Shown here piece after piece: positions 33,430-43,953 of a stretch of 64,000 nt of DNA. Position 1 is the first letter of the stretch. Every line of letters starts with the position of its first letter. The notes under the pieces are model-generated. The model had not been told where the DNA came from. It ran no database searches and saw nothing but the letters and a program-made list of their open reading frames with translations. Origin of the DNA: Psychroflexus halocasei (GTDB lineage Bacteria; Bacteroidota; Bacteroidia; Flavobacteriales; Flavobacteriaceae); assembly GCF_900107595.1 (NCBI RefSeq), contig NZ_FNQF01000004.1, positions 62,001 to 126,000 on the forward strand, in the 5' to 3' direction. The position numbers and the translations under genes were made by a program.

Positions 33430-34035
33430 TTAAGCCTTTTTACGGGATTTAAGCAAGTTCACAACATCATTAAGTTCATAGCCTTTTGCATTTAATAATA
33501 TCAAATAATGAAAAAGTAAATCAGCAGATTCATTTAAAAATAAATCATCATTATCGTCCTTAGCTTCAATCACAACTTCTACGGCCTCCTCTCCTACTTT
33601 TTGTGCTATTTTATTGATGCCGCTATGAAAAAGAGATTTGACATAGGAATCTGTATTTTCTGAATTTCTTCTATTAGAAATAGTTTCTTCAAGATCAGTT
33701 ATAAATCCAAATTCTTGCTTGTTTGCATTTCCCCAACAAGTGTCAGTTCCTTTGTGGCAAACTGGTCCAGAAGGATTTACATTCATTAAAATAGCGTCCT
33801 GATCGCAATCAATTTGATGATTTATATATGCTAAAAAGTTACCACTTTCTTCACCTTTTGTCCATAATCTTTGTTTTGAACGGCTATAAAAAGTAACTTT
33901 TTTTGAGGTTAATGTTTCCTGAAATGCTTCATTATTCATATAACCTAACATCAAAACATTTTTAGTATTAGAATCTTGAATTATCGCCGGCAACAAGCCA
34001 TCTTTGTTTTTAGAAAAATTGGGTTTTTTAATCAT
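33430..34035 (-). CDS. hisIE: bifunctional phosphoribosyl-AMP cyclohydrolase / phosphoribosyl-ATP pyrophosphatase
   Basis: A 201-residue fusion catalysing steps 2 and 3 of histidine synthesis. The HisI part carries metal ligands in DCDQDAIL and the Cys pair in [12 protein letters not shown]; the HisE part (from about residue 110) carries [16 protein letters not shown] and [14 protein letters not shown]. It overlaps hisF by 4 bases. Confidence 0.95.
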
Positions 34036-34790
34036 TGTAATCGCATTAAAATATTATTATTAAGAAGGTATTTTTTGAGATCGATGATATCAATTTCTTT
34101 GTAATGAAAAACACTTGCTGCAAGCGCGGCATCAGCTTTTCCAATATTAAAAGTCTCTTTAAAATGTGACATTTTTCCTGCACCACCTGATGCGATGATG
34201 GGTATCGATAATTCATCAGATAACTTTGCCAAAGCCTCGTTTGCAAAACCGTTTTTTGTCCCATCGTGATCCATAGATGTAAAAAGTATTTCACCTGCAC
34301 CTAAACTTTCAACTTTTTTAGCCCATTCAAATAAATCTGCATCTGTACTTTTCTGACCGCCAACCAAATGCACTTTCCATTCACCTTCAATTACTCGAGC
34401 ATCAATAGCAACAACGCAACATTGTGAACCATAACGTTTTGAAATAGCTGTAATTAACTCTGGATTTAAGTAAGCTGATGTGTTGATTGAAACTTTATCA
34501 GCGCCTGACTTGAGCAAAACATCAACATCTTCTATTGAATTAATTCCGCCGCCAACTGTAAAAGGAATATTAATGCGTGAAGCAATTTGTTTAACTAAAC
34601 TTGCAAGAGTTTTACGCTTTTCTTCAGTTGCGGATATGTCAAGAAAAACAAGTTCATCTGCGCCATTTTTTGCATAAAATTCAGCTAATTCTAGAGGATC
34701 GCCAGCGTCTTTGATATCAACAAAATTGACGCCTTTCACTGTTCTGCCATTTTTAATATCCAAACAAGGGATTATTCTTTTTGTTAGCAT
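34032..34790 (-). CDS. hisF: imidazole glycerol phosphate synthase, cyclase subunit
   Basis: A 252-residue TIM barrel. Begins [20 protein letters not shown] with the catalytic Asp (about residue 11), has VGGGINS and [13 protein letters not shown] phosphate-binding loops and the second catalytic Asp in [12 protein letters not shown]. Works with HisH encoded two genes upstream to form IGP and AICAR. Two bases after hisA. Confidence 0.96.
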
Positions 34791-34792
34791 CT

Positions 34793-35518
34793 TTAATTAT
34801 TTAAAATGAAATTTTCTAAATCTTTTAAACTGATTTTATTTTCATAAATCGCTTTTCCGATAATCACAGCTTCACAGCCTATTTGCATGACATTTTCTAA
34901 GTCAGAAAGTTGAGAAACACCGCCAGAAGCAATGACTTTTAGCTCTGGATTAATGTCAAGTATTTGCTTGTAAAGTTGTAATGAAGGGCCTTGTAACATT
35001 CCATCTTTTGAAATATCTGTTGAAATAACATATTTAATCCCTTCTTCGGAAAAGTTTTTAATAAAATTCTCAATTTCAATATCAGAAGTTTCTGTCCAGC
35101 CTGAAGTTGCTATTTTTCCTTTTATGACATCAGCTCCTAAAATGATTTTATTTGAGCCATATTTATCTAGCCATTCCAAAAACAAATCTTGATTATTGAC
35201 AGCAATACTCCCACCTGTAATTTGCTTTGCACCAGAATTAAAAGCTATTTCAAGATCTTCATTTGTTTTTAAACCGCCACCAAAATCAATATTGAGGTTA
35301 GTTTTTGTGGCAATACGTTCTAGAACTTTATAATTGATAATCTTCTGAGCTTTCGCGCCATCTAAATCGACAAGATGTAAATTCTCTATGCCATGATCTT
35401 CAAAAGCCATGGCGATTTCAAGTGGATCTTCACTATATATTTTTTTGGTTGAATAATCACCTTTCGTCAATCTGACACATTTTCCTTCGATAATATCTAT
35501 TGCTGGGATAAGACGCAT
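34793..35518 (-). CDS. hisA: phosphoribosylformimino-5-aminoimidazole carboxamide ribotide isomerase
   Basis: A 241-residue TIM-barrel isomerase homologous to HisF. Opening [20 protein letters not shown] with catalytic Asp8; [12 protein letters not shown] and [13 protein letters not shown] phosphate loops, and [12 protein letters not shown] with the second Asp. Confidence 0.96.
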
Positions 35519-35520
35519 AA

Positions 35521-36114
35521 TTAATTTTTTAAATTCATAAAATTGAGTAATAATTGTTCACCTTGTACTGAACTTTTCTCTGGATGAAATTGTACTCCAC
35601 AAAAGTTGTTTTTCTGAAAAGCAACACAATAATTCACACCATAATCAGATGAGGCTATAGAATTTTCATTTTGCTCTACATAGTATGAATGAACTAAATA
35701 CATAAATGATTTTTCTGAAATATTTTGAAACAAGTCTGTCCTTAAATCAGCAATTTGATTCCAGCCAACTTGCGGAATTTTAAGATTTTTGGATGAAAAC
35801 TTAACAACATCAAGATCAAAAATCCCTAGTCCGTTCGTGTTTCCTTCCTCTGAAAAACGACACATGAGTTGCATGCCTAAACAGATTCCTAAAACTGGCT
35901 GTTTTAAATTTTTGATCACTTTATCCAAGCCTTTTGCCTCTAAAGTTTTCATTGCTGAATCAGCTGCACCAACACCAGGAAAAATAACACGATCAGCAGA
36001 TTGAATTTCAGAAATATCATCTGTTAAGATTGATGAATATCCTAATCTCAATATTGCAAATTCTAAACTTTTCACATTACCAACACCGTAATCTATTATT
36101 ACTGTTTTGAGCAT
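35521..36114 (-). CDS. hisH: imidazole glycerol phosphate synthase, glutamine amidotransferase subunit
   Basis: A 197-residue class I glutamine amidotransferase that supplies ammonia to HisF. The nucleophile Cys78 is in GICLGMQL, and the His/Glu pair in VQFHPEKSS near the end. [12 protein letters not shown] is the HisH N-terminal signature. Start overlaps the hisB stop by one base. Confidence 0.96.
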
Positions 36115-37247
36115 TAGAGTTTTCCTTTTGTTGTTGGTAAAATCATTTTTGAAGTATCTCTTTTTACAGCCATTTTGATCGCTTTTGCGAAAGCTTTAAA
36201 AATCGCCTCTATTTTGTGATGCTCATTGATGCCTTCAGCCTTAATATTCAAGTTAGCTTGTGCTCCATCAGAAAAAGATTTGAAGAAATGCATAAACATT
36301 TCTGTTGGCATTTTACCAATCATTTCTCTTTTAAAATCGGCTTGCCATTCCAACCAATTTCTTCCGCCAAAATCAATAGCAACTTGAGCTAAAGCATCGT
36401 CCATAGGCAAGCAAAATCCATATCTCTCAATCCCTAACTTATCAGCTAAAGCTTCTTTAAAAGCTTCACCTAAAGCAATTGCTGTATCTTCAATCGTATG
36501 ATGTTCATCAACCTCCAAGTCACCTTCAACCGATAGTTGAATATCAATTTGGCCGTGTTTTGCGATTTGATCTAACATGTGATCAAAGAAAGAAATCCCT
36601 GTTGAAATTTCAGATTCACCTGTTCCATCCAAATTAATCATCAACTCAATATTGGTTTCTTTCGTTTTTCTATTAATTTTTGCATGACGTTGGCCATATT
36701 TAAGAAATTCGTAAATTTCATCCCAAGAATTTGTTTTGAGGTCGATAGTTTCTTGAAGATCTTGAATTTCGTTTTTGACTTCTTTTTCACCTAAATTTTG
36801 ACCATCATAAATATAAATTGCTTTTGAGTTTAAGTTTTGAGCTAATTTCATATCAGTCATCCTATCACCTATTACATAAGAGTTTTCGAGATCATAATCA
36901 CCTTCAATATATGTTTTTAGCAAACCGGTTTCAGGTTTTCTGTTGGGTGATTTTTCTTTTGCAAAACTTTTATCAATCAGAATCTCTTTGAATATAACAT
37001 CTTCATTTTCAAAGATTTTCAACATCAAATTATGAACAGGCCAAAAAGTATTTTCAGGAAAAGCTTTTGTGCCTAATCCATCTTGATTTGTAAGCATAAT
37101 CAACTCATAATCAAGTTCAGCTTCTATTTTTCGAAGTGCTGAAATGACTTGAGGTAAAAATTCAAGCTTAGCGTAATCGTCAATCTGTTGATCTTTTGGC
37201 TCTTTTATTAAAGTGCCATCTCTATCTATAATCAGTAATTTTTTCAT
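36114..37247 (-). CDS. hisB: bifunctional histidinol-phosphatase / imidazoleglycerol-phosphate dehydratase
   Basis: A 377-residue fusion. The N-terminal HAD phosphatase (about 1-165) shows IDRDGTLI with both catalytic Asp and VIGDRMTDMKLA; the C-terminal dehydratase shows FFDHMLDQIAKHG, DEHHTIEDTAIALGEA and EHHKIEAIFKAFAKAI with the metal-binding histidines. Same fused arrangement as enterobacteria. Overlaps hisC by 4 bases. Confidence 0.96.
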   Translation of the reverse strand: MKKLLIIDRDGTLIKEPKDQQIDDYAKLEFLPQVISALRKIEAELDYELIMLTNQDGLGTKAFPENTFWPVHNLMLKIFENEDVIFKEILIDKSFAKEKSPNRKPETGLLKTYIEGDYDLENSYVIGDRMTDMKLAQNLNSKAIYIYDGQNLGEKEVKNEIQDLQETIDLKTNSWDEIYEFLKYGQRHAKINRKTKETNIELMINLDGTGESEISTGISFFDHMLDQIAKHGQIDIQLSVEGDLEVDEHHTIEDTAIALGEAFKEALADKLGIERYGFCLPMDDALAQVAIDFGGRNWLEWQADFKREMIGKMPTEMFMHFFKSFSDGAQANLNIKAEGINEHHKIEAIFKAFAKAIKMAVKRDTSKMILPTTKGKL

Positions 37248-38284
37248 CGGTCAATTTCTTTTAAAACGTAAATTAATTTTTGATTTTCTTGTGGATTTCC
37301 AACACTGATGCGCAAACAATTTTCACACATTTCTACATTGGTTCTGTTACGAACGACAATACCAAAATTCAATAATTCTTGATAGCGTTTATTGGCATCG
37401 TCAACTTTGACTAAGATAAAATTAGCATCGCTAGGATAAACTTTTTCAACATAATTTAAAGATTCTAAAACCTTAAATAAAACTGACCTTTCAGACTTTA
37501 TAATCTCTATCTGGGATTTCATTTTGTCAATATTTTTAAGAAATTGAATCGCTTTTTGTTGCGTTAAAGTATTAACATTATACGGTAATTTAATTTTATT
37601 GATCGCTTTACAAATAGCTTGAGAAGCATAGCAAACGCCAAGTCTGATTCCTGCAAGACCAGCCGCTTTTGAAAATGTTTGTGTGATGATTAAATTTTCA
37701 TAATGTGCTAACTCGTTGATGAAAGAACTGTTTGCAGAAAAATCTATATAAGCTTCATCAATCACAACAATTCCTTTAAAATCATCTAGTACTTTCTTGA
37801 TTGAAGCCACTTGAAGCAAGGCTCCACTTGGATTATTAGGTGAACACAGTATAATCATTTTTGTATTTTTTGACACTTCATTTAAAAGTGCTTTGACATC
37901 AAGTTGGAATTTTGAGTTTAAACGGCATGTTTTGTAAGTCACATTATTAATTTGAGCCAGAACTTCATACATTCCGTAACTTGGAGAAAGACTTAAAATT
38001 TCATCTTTTTGAGGTTCACAAAAAACACGAATAATCATATCTAAAATTTCATCACTTCCATTCCCTAAAACAATATTTTCATGACTGATCATTTTGAGAT
38101 CAGCTAATTTCTTTTTTAAACTTTTTTGATAAGGATCAGGATACCGATTATATTCGGTATCAAAAGGATTTTCATTTGCATCCATAAACTGAAAATCATC
38201 TTTTTTATCTGAAAATTCATCTCGCGCCGAACTGTATTTTTTTAGATTTAAAACAGATGGACGTATTAATTTATTGATATTCAT
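37244..38284 (-). CDS. hisC: histidinol-phosphate aminotransferase
   Basis: A 346-residue fold type I PLP enzyme. Motifs: MDANENPFD at the N-terminus, LGNGSDEILDMI, CSPNNPSGALL, DEAYIDF and the PLP lysine in TQTFSKAAGLAGIRLG. Shares a base with hisD upstream. Confidence 0.95.
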   Translation of the reverse strand: MNINKLIRPSVLNLKKYSSARDEFSDKKDDFQFMDANENPFDTEYNRYPDPYQKSLKKKLADLKMISHENIVLGNGSDEILDMIIRVFCEPQKDEILSLSPSYGMYEVLAQINNVTYKTCRLNSKFQLDVKALLNEVSKNTKMIILCSPNNPSGALLQVASIKKVLDDFKGIVVIDEAYIDFSANSSFINELAHYENLIITQTFSKAAGLAGIRLGVCYASQAICKAINKIKLPYNVNTLTQQKAIQFLKNIDKMKSQIEIIKSERSVLFKVLESLNYVEKVYPSDANFILVKVDDANKRYQELLNFGIVVRNRTNVEMCENCLRISVGNPQENQKLIYVLKEIDR

Positions 38285-39579
38285 TAGATTAATTTTAGGG
38301 CATTTAAACGTAAGCGCATCGCATTTTTGTGAGCAGTTAAACCTTCCACTTCAGCCATCACTTCAACAGTTTCACCAATTGATTTAACGCCATTTTCGTC
38401 AAGTTTTTGGTAAGTCAATGTTTTCATAAAAGCGTCTAAATTAACGCCGCTATATTGTTTCGCAAAAGCATTCGTAGGCAGTGTGTGATTAGTCCCAGAA
38501 GCATAATCACCAGCGCTTTCGGGTGTCAAATTACCAAGAAAAACAGAGCCAGCATTTATCACTTTCTCTGAGAACTCATCAGCTTGATCTGTTGCAATAA
38601 TCAAATGCTCTGGTGCATAAAAATTAATAAGTTCAAAAGCAGAATCTAGATTTTTCATCAAAATAAATTTAGAATTTGCTATCGCTTTTCTTGCAATTTC
38701 TTTTCTGGGAAGTGAATTTATTTGAAGATTTAGTTCAGCTTTTACCTGATTGATTGTCTCTAAATTATCAGCAACAAGAATCACTTGCGAATCTTCACCA
38801 TGTTCCGCCTGACTTAATAAATCCGCAGCAACAAACTCAGGCACACAAGTTTGATCAGCATAAACTAATAGTTCTGAGGGTCCCGCTGGCATATCGATTG
38901 CAACATCATAAGTTGTTGCGATTTGCTTGGCTATTGTCACATATTGGTTGCCAGGGCCAAAGATTTTATAAACTTTAGGAATACTTTCTGTTCCAAATGT
39001 CATTCCTGCAATAGCTTGAATACCTCCAACTTTGAAAATCTGAGTCACGCCACAGAGTTGTGCTGTATATAAAATAGCAGGATCAATTTCACCATCTTTA
39101 GAAGGTGGTGTACACAAAACAATATCTTCACAACCCGCAATTTGGGCTGGAATCGCTAACATGAGAACAGTTGAAAACAATGGCGCACTTCCACCAGGAA
39201 TGTAAAGTCCAACTTTTTGAATTGCTTTCTTTTTCTGCCAGCAAAAAACTCCTTTTTTAGTTTCTACAATTGGTAAATCTGGTTGTAATTGCGCTTTATG
39301 AAATTTATAAATGGCTTCATAAGCATTTTGTATTGCAGATTTTAAGTCTTCAGAAACATTTTTTTCTGATGCTTTAATTTCTTCTTGTAAAACAGTAAAA
39401 GGTTGATTATCAAACTTATCAAAAATTTTTGCATATTTTAAAATTGCTTTGTCACCATTATTCAAAACATCTTTAAAAATTTGTTTAGCCTGATTTTCTA
39501 AATCCTGAAAAGATTGGGTAGGTCTTTTTAAAATTGATAGCCAATCTGATGAAATTGGATTTTTTATTGTGCTGATCAT
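38284..39579 (-). CDS. hisD: histidinol dehydrogenase
   Basis: A 431-residue zinc enzyme doing the last two oxidations to histidine. Family phrases: VGLYIPGGSAPLFSTVLML, KVGGIQAIAGMTFGTESIPKV, PGNQYVTIAK, DMPAGPSELLVYAD, and the zinc/catalytic regions LSQAEHGEDSQ and YAPEHLI. Overlaps hisG by 4 bases. Confidence 0.96.
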   Translation of the reverse strand: MISTIKNPISSDWLSILKRPTQSFQDLENQAKQIFKDVLNNGDKAILKYAKIFDKFDNQPFTVLQEEIKASEKNVSEDLKSAIQNAYEAIYKFHKAQLQPDLPIVETKKGVFCWQKKKAIQKVGLYIPGGSAPLFSTVLMLAIPAQIAGCEDIVLCTPPSKDGEIDPAILYTAQLCGVTQIFKVGGIQAIAGMTFGTESIPKVYKIFGPGNQYVTIAKQIATTYDVAIDMPAGPSELLVYADQTCVPEFVAADLLSQAEHGEDSQVILVADNLETINQVKAELNLQINSLPRKEIARKAIANSKFILMKNLDSAFELINFYAPEHLIIATDQADEFSEKVINAGSVFLGNLTPESAGDYASGTNHTLPTNAFAKQYSGVNLDAFMKTLTYQKLDENGVKSIGETVEVMAEVEGLTAHKNAMRLRLNALKLI

Positions 39580-40433
39580 AATATCATTTTGTCTATAGAG
39601 TTTATAAGAATACTTTCTGCGCCTGCAGTTTTGAGCTCGTCAATGATTTCCCAAAACTGATCTTGATGAATCACAGTATGTACTGAACTCCAATTTTTAT
39701 CAGCTAAAGGCATAATTGTGGGACTTTTCATACCTGGAAGGATTTTAATAATGTCGTCCAACTTATTATTAGGTGCATTTAATAAGACATATTTTGAATT
39801 TTCAGCTCTTAAGACAGAAGAAATTCTGAAGCTCAATTGATCTAATAAAGATTGTTTTTCTTTATTTAATTGTGGTGAGCTCACTAAAACTGCTTCGCTT
39901 TCAAGAATGGTTTCAACTTCCTTTAAATTATTTTTAAACAAAGTACTTCCGCTAGAAACAATATCACAAATGGCTTGCGAAAGGCCAATATTTGGTGCTA
40001 TTTCAACAGAACCATTAATTAAATGAATATCGGCCTTAATGTTTTTTTGATTTAAAAATCTTTTTAAGGTGTTTGGATAAGATGTGGCAATTTCTTTTCC
40101 ATCTAAATCTTTGATATTTTGATAATCCATAGTCTTTGGAACCGCGATAGAAACACGACATTTCGAAAAACCAAGTTTCTGGACAATTGGTAAATCCTCT
40201 CCTTTTTCAATGCAAAGGTTTTCGCCGATAATAGCTAAATCAACAACGCCATCTCTTAAATATTTAGGGATATCTCCATTTCTGAGATAGAATATTTCAA
40301 GGGGAAAGTTTGAGGCTTTAGCTTTGAGTTGACCTTTACCATTATTGATCGAAATTCCGCAATCTTTAAGAATTTTAAGTGATTCACCATGCAGTCGACC
40401 CGATTTTTGAATTGCAATTTTAAGTGTATTCAT
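39576..40433 (-). CDS. hisG: ATP phosphoribosyltransferase, long form
   Basis: A 285-residue first and committed enzyme of histidine synthesis. Long HisG form with the C-terminal regulatory (HisG_C) domain expected to bind histidine, so no HisZ is needed. Motifs: AIQKSGRLHGESLKIL, DLAIIGENL, and the PRPP-binding ICDIVSSGSTLFKNNLKEV. First structural gene of the operon, 81 bases after the leader-peptide stop, with the attenuator terminator between. Confidence 0.95.
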   Translation of the reverse strand: MNTLKIAIQKSGRLHGESLKILKDCGISINNGKGQLKAKASNFPLEIFYLRNGDIPKYLRDGVVDLAIIGENLCIEKGEDLPIVQKLGFSKCRVSIAVPKTMDYQNIKDLDGKEIATSYPNTLKRFLNQKNIKADIHLINGSVEIAPNIGLSQAICDIVSSGSTLFKNNLKEVETILESEAVLVSSPQLNKEKQSLLDQLSFRISSVLRAENSKYVLLNAPNNKLDDIIKILPGMKSPTIMPLADKNWSSVHTVIHQDQFWEIIDELKTAGAESILINSIDKMIL

Positions 40434-40449
40434 TTTTATAATTTTTAAA

Positions 40450-40488
40450 TAAAAAAGCCCGTTTAAACAATTTTGCTTAAACGGGCTT
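40450..40488 (-). terminator. attenuator terminator of the his operon
   Basis: On the minus strand a 12-base perfect stem (AAGCCCGTTTAA with TTAAACGGGCTT, arms 40488-40477 and 40466-40455) with a 10-base loop and a T-run, placed between the leader peptide and hisG. The loop-side part of its first arm (40483-40475) can pair instead with 40542-40534. Confidence 0.9.
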
Positions 40489-40507
40489 CAATAGCTGATT
40501 ATCTTTA

Positions 40508-40567
40508 ATTTACATCAAAACAGGTATTGATCGCGCTTAAGCGATGTCAATAAATGATGATGTAAAT
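40508..40567 (-). promoter_or_regulatory. competing RNA segments of the his attenuator
   Basis: In the transcript, a segment across the His codons (AUUUACAUCA, 40567-40558) is perfectly complementary over 10 bases to one at the leader stop codon (UGAUGUAAAU, 40517-40508). GCUUAAGCG (40542-40534), inside the leader reading frame, can pair over 9 positions (one G-U) with CGUUUAAGC (40483-40475) in the terminator. A ribosome stalled at His codons would free GCUUAAGCG to form the antiterminator. Confidence 0.75.
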
Positions 40568-40580
40568 GTATGTTTCTCAT
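40515..40580 (-). CDS. hisL: his operon leader peptide
   Basis: A 21-residue open frame, ATG at 40580, stop TGA overlapping the second competing segment. It begins MRNIHLHHHLL and has four His codons among residues 5-9 (all CAT), then TSLKRDQYLF. It sits between a full promoter and an attenuator terminator upstream of hisG, which is exactly the layout of histidine transcription attenuation. Too short to be found by length; recognised from codon content and context. The -7 element is 7 bases from the ATG, so the mRNA is almost leaderless. Confidence 0.88.
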   Translation of the reverse strand: MRNIHLHHHLLTSLKRDQYLF

Positions 40581-40587
40581 AGTGATG

Positions 40588-40618
40588 CAAACATAAATAT
40601 TGTATTTACTTCTCGCAA
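40588..40618 (-). promoter_or_regulatory. promoter of the his operon
   Basis: TATGTTTG (40595-40588, minus strand), 20-base spacer, TTG (40618-40616): a full Bacteroidota promoter directly before the leader peptide. Confidence 0.75.
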
Positions 40619-40673: not shown

Positions 40674-41285
40674 TTATTTGTCAAAATATATTCTCCAAAT
40701 CCCTCTCACTTCGTTCTCTTGATAACCAATAGCTTTGTCTGCAGGATAAAGCTCAAGGACTTTATCGTAATCTGATTTAGAAATATCCTTACCAACTTCT
40801 CCGTGACATTTTAAACACATTGAGTTAGTAACTAAAGGAAAATAAAAAGCAACTTGAGATTCTTGCTCATCAATAATAGGTTCAGGTTTTTCGCCTTTCG
40901 CAATCACTTCAGAAAACTCTTTAATAATATCTATTTCTTTTTCTGATGCTGCGTTAGCTGAATTACGATTTTTATTGGAAACTCTTTTAATATCAGCATT
41001 ATATTTCCTTGACATAGAGTCGGTTATCGGCATCGCTTGAACATTACAAAATTCTAACGCATGAATAGGCCCGTCCTCTTTCATTTTGGTCATTAAATTT
41101 TTACCAAGCTCTGCTTTGGTTCCTATCGCATATTCTAAACCTATGCTTTTGTAATCTTTCTGCTCTTTGTTTTCAACTTGAACAGACTCATCTTTCTTTT
41201 GATCTGTTTGATCTTGAGATTTATTGTTCTGGCAGCTCGATAAAGTTAAAGCTAAAACGAAAATTGAGATTAATATTTTTTTCAT
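40674..41285 (-). CDS. DUF3365 heme-binding lipoprotein
   Basis: A 203-residue lipoprotein (signal peptide with lipobox LSSC, Cys about 18). A charged linker is followed by a DUF3365 (Tll0287-like) domain: ALEFCNVQAMPITDSMSRKYNADIKRVSNKNRN, where N- and C-terminal helices frame the heme pocket, and a single c-type heme motif CLKCH near residue 160. The domain is found alone or as the sensor of histidine kinases; here it is free and outer- or inner-membrane anchored in the periplasm. Likely a redox or gas-sensing cytochrome. A GTAAC-N4-GTTAC palindrome lies upstream. Confidence 0.88.
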   Translation of the reverse strand: MKKILISIFVLALTLSSCQNNKSQDQTDQKKDESVQVENKEQKDYKSIGLEYAIGTKAELGKNLMTKMKEDGPIHALEFCNVQAMPITDSMSRKYNADIKRVSNKNRNSANAASEKEIDIIKEFSEVIAKGEKPEPIIDEQESQVAFYFPLVTNSMCLKCHGEVGKDISKSDYDKVLELYPADKAIGYQENEVRGIWRIYFDK

Positions 41286-42825: not shown

Positions 42826-43953
42826 ATGATAATGATCTCATCTCGTTTTCTTATTGATAAAAACAAGATCTTTTTATTTTTAATATTCGTACTCACCACA
42901 TTTAACTTTGTTCATGCTCAAGAAAATAAAGTTGATACTTTAAAGACGAAAATTCTTAAAATTGGTGTTGCTGGCAATGAACCTTTTGTCTTTACAACTG
43001 ATGGTGATGTTTCTGGTGGTATCGCTATTGAGATATGGGAAGATATTGCTTTAGAAGAAAATTGGGATTATGAATACCAAATATTTGATAGCGCTGATAA
43101 AGCTCTGAGAAAACTTGGCAGAAATGATTTAGATATTGTTGTCGGTCCTTTAAGCATTACGTCTAATCGCTTAGAAAGAATGCAGTTCTCTCAACCTTTC
43201 TACAATTCAAGTTTAGCTATTGTTTCTCGCGAAGATGATTTTAGTTTATGGAATGCTATTAAACCGCTTTTTAGCATTAAGCTAATATTAGCTGTTGCTG
43301 TTTTTCTTTTTATTCTTGCTATTGTAGGAACACTTCTATGGCTGGCTGAACGAAATAAATCTCCTGATCAATTCCCGCATGATCCAATTAACGGAATTGC
43401 AACAGGCATGTGGCTTGCCATTGTCACCATGAGTACAACGGGCTATGGAGACAAAGCTCCGATTACAGTTTCTGGACGCATAATTGCTGGTGCTTGGATG
43501 GTTATTTCCATTATTTCTGCAACTTCTATGGTAGCTGGTATTGCCAGTACTTTAACTTTGTCATCTTTAGGGACGACAACAATCACAAATATTGAACAAC
43601 TTTCTGATCGAAAGGCAGCTACAGTTCAAGGGTCGCCATCTGAAAATTTTCTTCGTGAAAACAAGGTTAAAGTCAGTAATGTTGCTAGCCTTGATGATGC
43701 ATTTGATCAATTAAAAAGTAATGATGTGGATGCAGTTGTTTACGATAGACCACAATTGCTTTATCATCTAAAAAATGAAACTGAAAATCAATTACACTTG
43801 GCCAAAGCTGAATATTACAAACAGGGTTATGGTTTTGCCTTTCCGAAAAATGATAACAGATTTATTTATAGAGTCAATCGCGCTTTATTGGAGCATGCCG
43901 AAAAACAAGAAACTGTGCGCATTATTGATTATTACTTAGATAAAGATGAGTAA
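42826..43953 (+). CDS. GluR0-like ligand-gated potassium channel
   Basis: A 375-residue prokaryotic ionotropic glutamate receptor homologue. Signal peptide, then periplasmic binding lobe S1 (IGVAGNEPFVFTTDGDVSGG, DIVVGPLSITSNRLERMQFSQPFY), transmembrane helix 1 (about 150-171), a pore loop with the selectivity filter TTGYGD (204-209), transmembrane helix 2 (about 215-240), and binding lobe S2 (TVQGSPSENFL, DAVVYDRPQLLYHL, YGFAFPKND). The filter is the K+-selective type. The ligand, probably an amino acid, is unknown. Monocistronic. Confidence 0.88.
   Translation: MIMISSRFLIDKNKIFLFLIFVLTTFNFVHAQENKVDTLKTKILKIGVAGNEPFVFTTDGDVSGGIAIEIWEDIALEENWDYEYQIFDSADKALRKLGRNDLDIVVGPLSITSNRLERMQFSQPFYNSSLAIVSREDDFSLWNAIKPLFSIKLILAVAVFLFILAIVGTLLWLAERNKSPDQFPHDPINGIATGMWLAIVTMSTTGYGDKAPITVSGRIIAGAWMVISIISATSMVAGIASTLTLSSLGTTTITNIEQLSDRKAATVQGSPSENFLRENKVKVSNVASLDDAFDQLKSNDVDAVVYDRPQLLYHLKNETENQLHLAKAEYYKQGYGFAFPKNDNRFIYRVNRALLEHAEKQETVRIIDYYLDKDE

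Follow-up and report, generated by a model that had tools for sequence, protein, structure and literature searches.

A putative ribosome-mediated transcription attenuator upstream of the histidine operon in Psychroflexus halocasei

Within a 64,000-nucleotide stretch of the P. halocasei genome (hereafter the window), the sequence preceding hisG is best read as a ribosome-mediated transcription attenuator of the his operon, an interpretation based on sequence comparison to which we assign a probability of about 0.92. The locus combines a run of codons for the amino acid of the pathway, an intrinsic terminator evident from both sequence and fold, a predicted antiterminator exclusive with it, and a means of guarding the antiterminator strand. 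Such guarding can be provided by a protector hairpin or by the ribosome, and in the window the candidate is the protector and not ribosome covering. A preliminary description of the same DNA had proposed a His leader-peptide attenuator at this position, and its core is now strongly supported by conservation and covariation among relatives. The presence of a his attenuator in the family is already indicated in print; what we add from sequence comparison is covariation for three hairpins, a pairing that involves the stop codon, a lineage-specific correction of the ribosome geometry, and a parallel trp leader.

Anatomy of the region upstream of hisG

The features of the locus, all on the minus strand of the window, are as follows.

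40588-40618 (-): putative promoter of the Bacteroidota sigma-A type, with TTG at 40618-40616 and TATGTTTG at 40595-40588
40515-40580 (-): leader peptide ORF of 21 codons, MRNIHLHHHLLTSLKRDQYLF followed by the stop UGA, with His codons 5, 7, 8 and 9
40558-40567 (-): protector 5' strand ATTTACATCA, lying over the His codons (complementarity, fold)
40534-40542 (-): antiterminator strand GCTTAAGCG, within the leader ORF (covariation with the terminator 5' arm; minimum-energy fold without the His codons)
40508-40517 (-): protector 3' strand TGATGTAAAT, beginning at the stop codon (complementarity, fold)
40454-40489 (-): intrinsic terminator hairpin, 16 pairs and a loop of 4 (sequence, covariation, fold)
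40483-40475 (-): segment CGTTTAAGC of the terminator 5' arm
40456-40451 (-): U-run of the terminator
33430-40433 (-): operon hisG-hisD-hisC-hisB-hisH-hisA-hisF-hisIE, putatively controlled (ORFs; an NCBIfam match above cut-off for each of the eight)

The ATG of hisG, assigned by its NCBIfam match, is at 40433, which places it 81 nt from the leader stop codon, with the terminator in between, and 20 nt from the terminator itself. As this 20-nt gap lacks a TAnnTTTG box, transcripts from the leader promoter would reach hisG only by reading through the terminator. The 21-codon frame with four His codons in residues 5-9 is present as first described, and so is the terminator, although its stem is longer than the 12 bp initially given, with 16 pairs counted. 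The leader RNA folds with an energy of -43.3 kcal/mol (z -8.65); for the leader part with its protector, the antiterminator form and the terminator, the predicted energies are -20.3, -20.2 and -22.5 kcal/mol, respectively. Elsewhere in the window, the plus-strand ORF at 42826-43953 carries a TGYGD motif, similar to a selectivity filter, between stretches reminiscent of a periplasmic binding domain, and we take it to be possibly an ionotropic glutamate-receptor-like channel.

A promoter before the leader had also been proposed, and the motif fits this: a TTG is followed by TATGTTTG, which agrees with the TAnnTTTG box at six of six positions. A simple sigma-70 scan returned no minus-strand site for the leader; Bacteroidota promoters differ. 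In flavobacteria the G of this box (the -7 box) is placed at -5 (PMC6847099), and the box is given as spanning -12 to -5 (PMC9723704), so that transcription is predicted to start near 40583, 3 nt before the leader AUG.

Conservation of the His-rich leader

Relatives were drawn from ranked and hand-picked loci: the best 80 of 545 relatives (L002-L081), the top 29, not counting the own genome, among 167 matching genomes (L082-L110), the best 30 of 252 (L111-L140), and loci hand-picked from match lists (L141-L220). The locus from the same genome (L001) was omitted and the window used instead. A His-rich frame was defined as at least three His within six residues, with ATG, GTG, TTG and ATT accepted as starts. 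Comparing the hisG-upstream region across relatives, as the preliminary description had suggested, revealed covariation for the terminator, the antiterminator and a shifted protector (below) and such a frame in 130 of 134 family regions, 5/5 order-level, 27/32 class-level and 21/49 phylum-level regions, counts that, given the ranking and hand-picking, do not come from a random sample. A frame together with a detected terminator was found in 129/134, 5/5, 14/32 and 11/49, respectively, and in ten dinucleotide shuffles under the same rules the frame appeared in 0-4/134, 0-1/5, 0-2/32 and 1-5/49. Five family regions lack either a His-rich frame or a detected terminator: three have two-His-codon frames on reading by eye (L077, L206 and L209), one has its leader displaced upstream (L073), and in one the leader is present and the terminator was missed by the scan (L082).

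The 134 of these frame counts, and of the residue counts below, are family regions only. The 134 of the antiterminator-duplex, geometry and promoter-box counts are 129 family plus 5 order-level leaders, the five family regions just named being skipped. Covariation was scored on alignment A1, which retains 66 of the 131 aligned leaders once near-duplicates are removed, with L026 and L089 trimmed to an inner ATG. The 65-leader sets, used for the His-codon/stop pairing, the promoter boxes and the ribosome-placement folds, are without L082, and the ribosome-placement folds, the covering geometry and the stop-codon/tree count are without L141-L144.

An exact pattern (CATCATCAY, 45-75 nt, ACCCGTTT) matched 106 of 199 family genomes versus 3 genomes with the reversed control; some of these matches stand away from hisG, and the own genome has none because its arm reads GCCCGTTT. 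A plasmid search gave no match. At five phylum-level loci (L127, L132, L136, L179 and L194), long His-rich frames precede hisG, such as MKQTLLYISHLHLDVHHAHHGHHHIHVQ in L127; the terminator scan found none at these loci, and control there may differ. As judged from these comparisons, conservation of the putative His leader attenuator extends across the flavobacterial family, with similar arrangements in relatives farther away.

The spacing between promoter box and leader ATG clusters among relatives. A box of at least 5/6 predicting a 5' UTR of 3-4 nt was found in 68 of the 77 M[RK]N-type leaders (6/6 in 16 of those), and one predicting 13-15 nt in 34 of the 57 others (6/6 in 23 of those). The de-duplicated 65 leaders have 20 boxes at 3-4 nt and 27 at 13-15 nt, compared with 0-12 and 2-16, respectively, in intervals of equal width farther upstream. 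In flavobacteria only a small share of mRNAs is leaderless, with 5.5% given for Flavobacterium psychrophilum (PMC9723704).

These data bear on whether the hairpin might simply be an ordinary terminator for the upstream gene, preceded by a short frame that arose by chance. A same-strand gene does end upstream of the promoter, at 40674, but that gene and the terminator have a promoter box between them, the 20 nt before hisG are free of one, and the His-rich frame recurs in 130 of 134 family regions versus 0-4 after shuffling; we consider this explanation very improbable.

The residue enriched in the frame matches the pathway. Before hisG, the 134 family regions yielded His-rich frames in 130, Trp-rich in 1, Leu-rich in 49, Gly-rich in 47 and Val-rich in 34; before trpE, a Trp-rich frame was found at 16 of 30 family loci and a His-rich frame at 0/30. 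We searched the window against Rfam and obtained no match of any family at gathering level, hence neither His_leader (presumably RF00514) nor T-box; at E<=10 there were 55 matches, all under gathering scores, which include Trp_leader at 21.8 bits and Thr_leader at 18.7 bits, with His_leader and T-box absent. A structured leader could bind a ligand, and control that dispenses with a leader ribosome might take the form of a T-box, another aptamer or a protein-dependent switch, of which DnaA-dependent attenuation of the his genes, as proposed for E. coli (PMC10989985), is an example. The lack of a gathering-level match in the window, and the fact that the conserved element is a run of pathway-matching codons, His before hisG and Trp before trpE, leave this form of control only a slight probability.

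Alternative hairpins and the position of the ribosome

Covariation supports three predicted, mutually exclusive hairpins: a terminator, an antiterminator, and a protector that reaches over the stop codon. For the terminator, 98.9% of cells in the 66 leaders are paired and 7 of 11 pairs show two-sided changes, values reached in 0/500 shuffles on all measures. For the antiterminator, a stretch of eight positions late in the leader ORF (mostly CTCARGCG; CTTAAGCG in the window) pairs with the terminator 5' arm, with 93.6% of cells paired and two-sided changes in 4 of 8 pairs (11 cells). Shuffles matched this in 0/500 on four measures and in 13/500 on the number of pair types, and their mean of 91.8% paired reflects the good conservation of the columns. 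RNAalifold predicted only the terminator on alignment A1 and not the other hairpins, as expected for mutually exclusive structures.

In the window, GCTTAAGCG and CGTTTAAGC pair at nine positions, as previously noted, one of them G-U, and 4/200 synonymous-codon shuffles reach the same score. The window also carries a two-sided antiterminator change of its own, from C-G to U-A, at columns 59/122. Taken one leader at a time, the antiterminator beats synonymous-codon shuffles (<=10/200) in 52 of 134 leaders, and it is broken in the middle in the L040- and L075-type clades. Among the 29 order-, class- and phylum-level loci with leader and terminator, 19 have a leader segment that complements their own 5' arm (<=10/200 shuffles), which in 15 of these ends at most 8 nt from the stop codon.

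This pairing also weighs on the idea that the leader peptide itself acts, for instance as a metal-binding or arrest peptide. QAR, QAS or QAK stands at or near the end of 101/129 family leaders, which favours this idea, but the RNA is retained where the peptide is not. The window has lost the QAR-type end yet keeps the RNA pairing, with its two-sided change; in five leaders the stop codon falls inside the antiterminator segment, whose RNA sequence is kept; and L006, L015, L042 and L095 carry a TAG stop where the common QAR end has its Gln codon, giving a shorter peptide with the antiterminator RNA intact. Class- and phylum-level leaders, moreover, have little in common except His richness. An active peptide is thus also a highly unlikely explanation.

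The protector of the window is a 10-bp stem in the fold, formed by the His-codon segment and the stop region, that encloses the antiterminator strand. The perfect 10-base complementarity described at the outset was recovered: ATTTACATCA (40567-40558) matches TGATGTAAAT (40517-40508), and 0/200 shuffles score as high, in the window as in L002. Minimum-energy folds of six other leaders have a hairpin that likewise encloses the antiterminator region. Pairing of His codons with the stop as a family-wide rule was rejected, as it beats shuffles (<=10/200) in only 10/65 leaders. Of the three pairings that relatives had been expected to share, the terminator and antiterminator are supported by covariation, and the exact His-codon/stop form gives way to a protector that is shifted family-wide, in which codons at or after the end of the His run pair with the ORF end and stop codon. 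In this shifted form 78.4% of cells are paired, a share biased upward as the structure was read from the fold of L010; two-sided changes occur in 11 of 14 pairs (12/500 shuffles) and 51 cells (0/500), compared with 20-40 two-sided cells in slid controls.

Within this hairpin, one pair joins the initial base (C or U) of the codon seven places ahead of the stop to the middle base of the stop (G of UGA, A of UAA/UAG); the two match in 90 of the 112 leaders with the standard layout, a set that does not include the window, whose layout is non-standard. The remaining 22 comprise 2 U-G combinations and 20 without a standard pair. When stop-codon changes were placed on a 97-tip HisG tree, 6 of the 8 shared a branch with a change of the partner base, where 1.3 are expected (P 0.0003 under random placement), a result for one tree under simple parsimony; one of the six co-changes, in L051, does not yield a standard pair.

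We next considered where the ribosome would stand, assuming a footprint whose 5' edge lies 12 nt upstream of the P codon. The best leader-arm duplex lies 3 nt from the stop codon in 100/134 leaders, so that a terminating ribosome would cover it, and under the assumed footprint it covers 80% or more of the duplex in 58/65 leaders. The distance from the last His codon to the duplex is 12-14 nt in 73/134 leaders, which would leave the duplex free while a ribosome waits at that codon; most of the rest carry a further His codon downstream or have a best duplex that is weaker. When a ribosome was placed on the first His codon of the run and the terminator 3' arm omitted, 65/65 folds paired the leader end with 6 nt or more of the 5' arm, compared with 13-26/65 in ten shuffles; moving the ribosome to the last His codon of that run gave the pairing in 64/65 folds.

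The earlier proposal that completion of the peptide covers GCUUAAGCG fails in the window itself, where 16 nt separate this segment from the stop codon and none of it is covered under the assumed footprint; L002 is alike. The folds and distances suggest that in the window the last step is replaced by the protector re-forming after release, and that GCUUAAGCG is probably sequestered by this hairpin rather than by ribosome covering.

The proposed attenuator would work as follows. RNA polymerase would begin transcribing the leader approximately 3 nt before its AUG, and a ribosome would translate it. If charged His-tRNA is short, the ribosome would stall on the His codons and keep the protector 5' strand open, so that GCUUAAGCG would be available for pairing with the terminator 5' arm; the antiterminator would then form and the operon be transcribed. 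If His-tRNA is plentiful, the ribosome would finish and release at the UGA, the protector would re-form around GCUUAAGCG, and the terminator would form before hisG. The protector is predicted to form in the absence of translation too, which would make termination the default. Control of hisG at the level of translation, by reinitiation downstream of the leader, for which the order of leader ORF and hisG is suitable, has a near-negligible probability, as 81 nt and a terminator separate the stop from hisG, versus the peak of 11-14 bp given for Bacteroidetes in a proposal of reinitiation at short leader-gene distances (PMC4833913).

Beyond attenuation as such, a distinct flavobacterial his-leader architecture is conceivable, at a little under even odds in our estimate: a near-leaderless or short-UTR leader with no Shine-Dalgarno site, in which the choice of UGA over UAA/UAG is tied by pairing to the sense codon seven places earlier, which would let the protector directly read the passage of the ribosome, and in which the genus of the window moved its stop downstream and traded covering for a stronger protector. 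The link between stop and sense codon is an unusual prediction, and the architecture, if real, would imply tight coupling of transcription and translation in Bacteroidota, to our knowledge a phylum without Shine-Dalgarno sites. Since leader-peptide attenuation needs a ribosome close to RNA polymerase, the conserved leader would be a direct reporter of coupling in this phylum. The covariation further points to a regulatory RNA without an Rfam match that precedes the his operon in almost all of the Flavobacteriaceae examined and has counterparts in other Bacteroidota.

The trp leader and comparison with known systems

The own genome has a trpE leader as well (L221/L223; contig C26, trpE at G000:C26:34276). 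It encodes MFNNSINTWWWLHLRQTS followed by a stop, with three consecutive Trp codons; its box TATATTTG predicts a UTR of 1 nt, and a terminator with arms GGCTTGTC and GACAAGCC precedes trpE. The design is that of the window's his leader, with Trp codons, a promoter box, a short predicted UTR and a terminator, in another sequence. The leader end GTCGTGA complements TCACGAC of the terminator; unlike in the his leader, the complement, as judged by eye, lies in the terminator loop and 3' arm and not in the 5' arm. In the trpE leaders L238, L242, L243, L246, L251 and L252, TCGTGA is kept at the end, read in another frame and with a later stop, and its retention across reading frames points to a function in the RNA. 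L247, one of the 18 Trp leaders listed, looks spurious. The own genome (G000, rated 99.96% complete) was also searched for other operons that might be attenuated; the families of prephenate dehydratase, dihydroxy-acid dehydratase and homoserine dehydrogenase were unmatched, which suggests several amino-acid auxotrophies, with the His and Trp genes kept.

Enterobacterial hisL is the classical counterpart: its short leader ORF contains a run of His codons, its RNA has alternative hairpins, and hisG is preceded by an intrinsic terminator. All of these features recur in the window. The window differs from hisL in that it has no His_leader match, its antiterminator strand lies inside the leader frame, its promoter has a TAnnTTTG box, and its predicted 5' UTR is 3 nt. 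Attenuators in Bacteroidetes were reportedly predicted by Vitreschak in 2004 and by Lopatovskaya in 2010. In a report on Bacteroidota his genes, attenuation upstream of hisG is stated for S. enterica and E. coli (PMC8305728), and small ORFs resembling leader peptides are described in Bacteroides (PMC7366714).

The earlier statement that no characterised flavobacterial example was known holds in so far as we found, in the open-licence papers searched, no direct regulatory test or covariation analysis of a Bacteroidota his leader; the novelty is lower than it implied, as a transcriptome of F. psychrophilum gives clues to leader-peptide attenuation before amino-acid operons and reports a structured 5' element of hisG, conserved in other Flavobacteriaceae genera and without an Rfam hit (PMC9723704). 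The section on that element gives no sequence, pairing or covariation, and its identity with the element of the window is our inference. The two share the same gene, conservation across Flavobacteriaceae, and the lack of an Rfam hit (PMC9723704).
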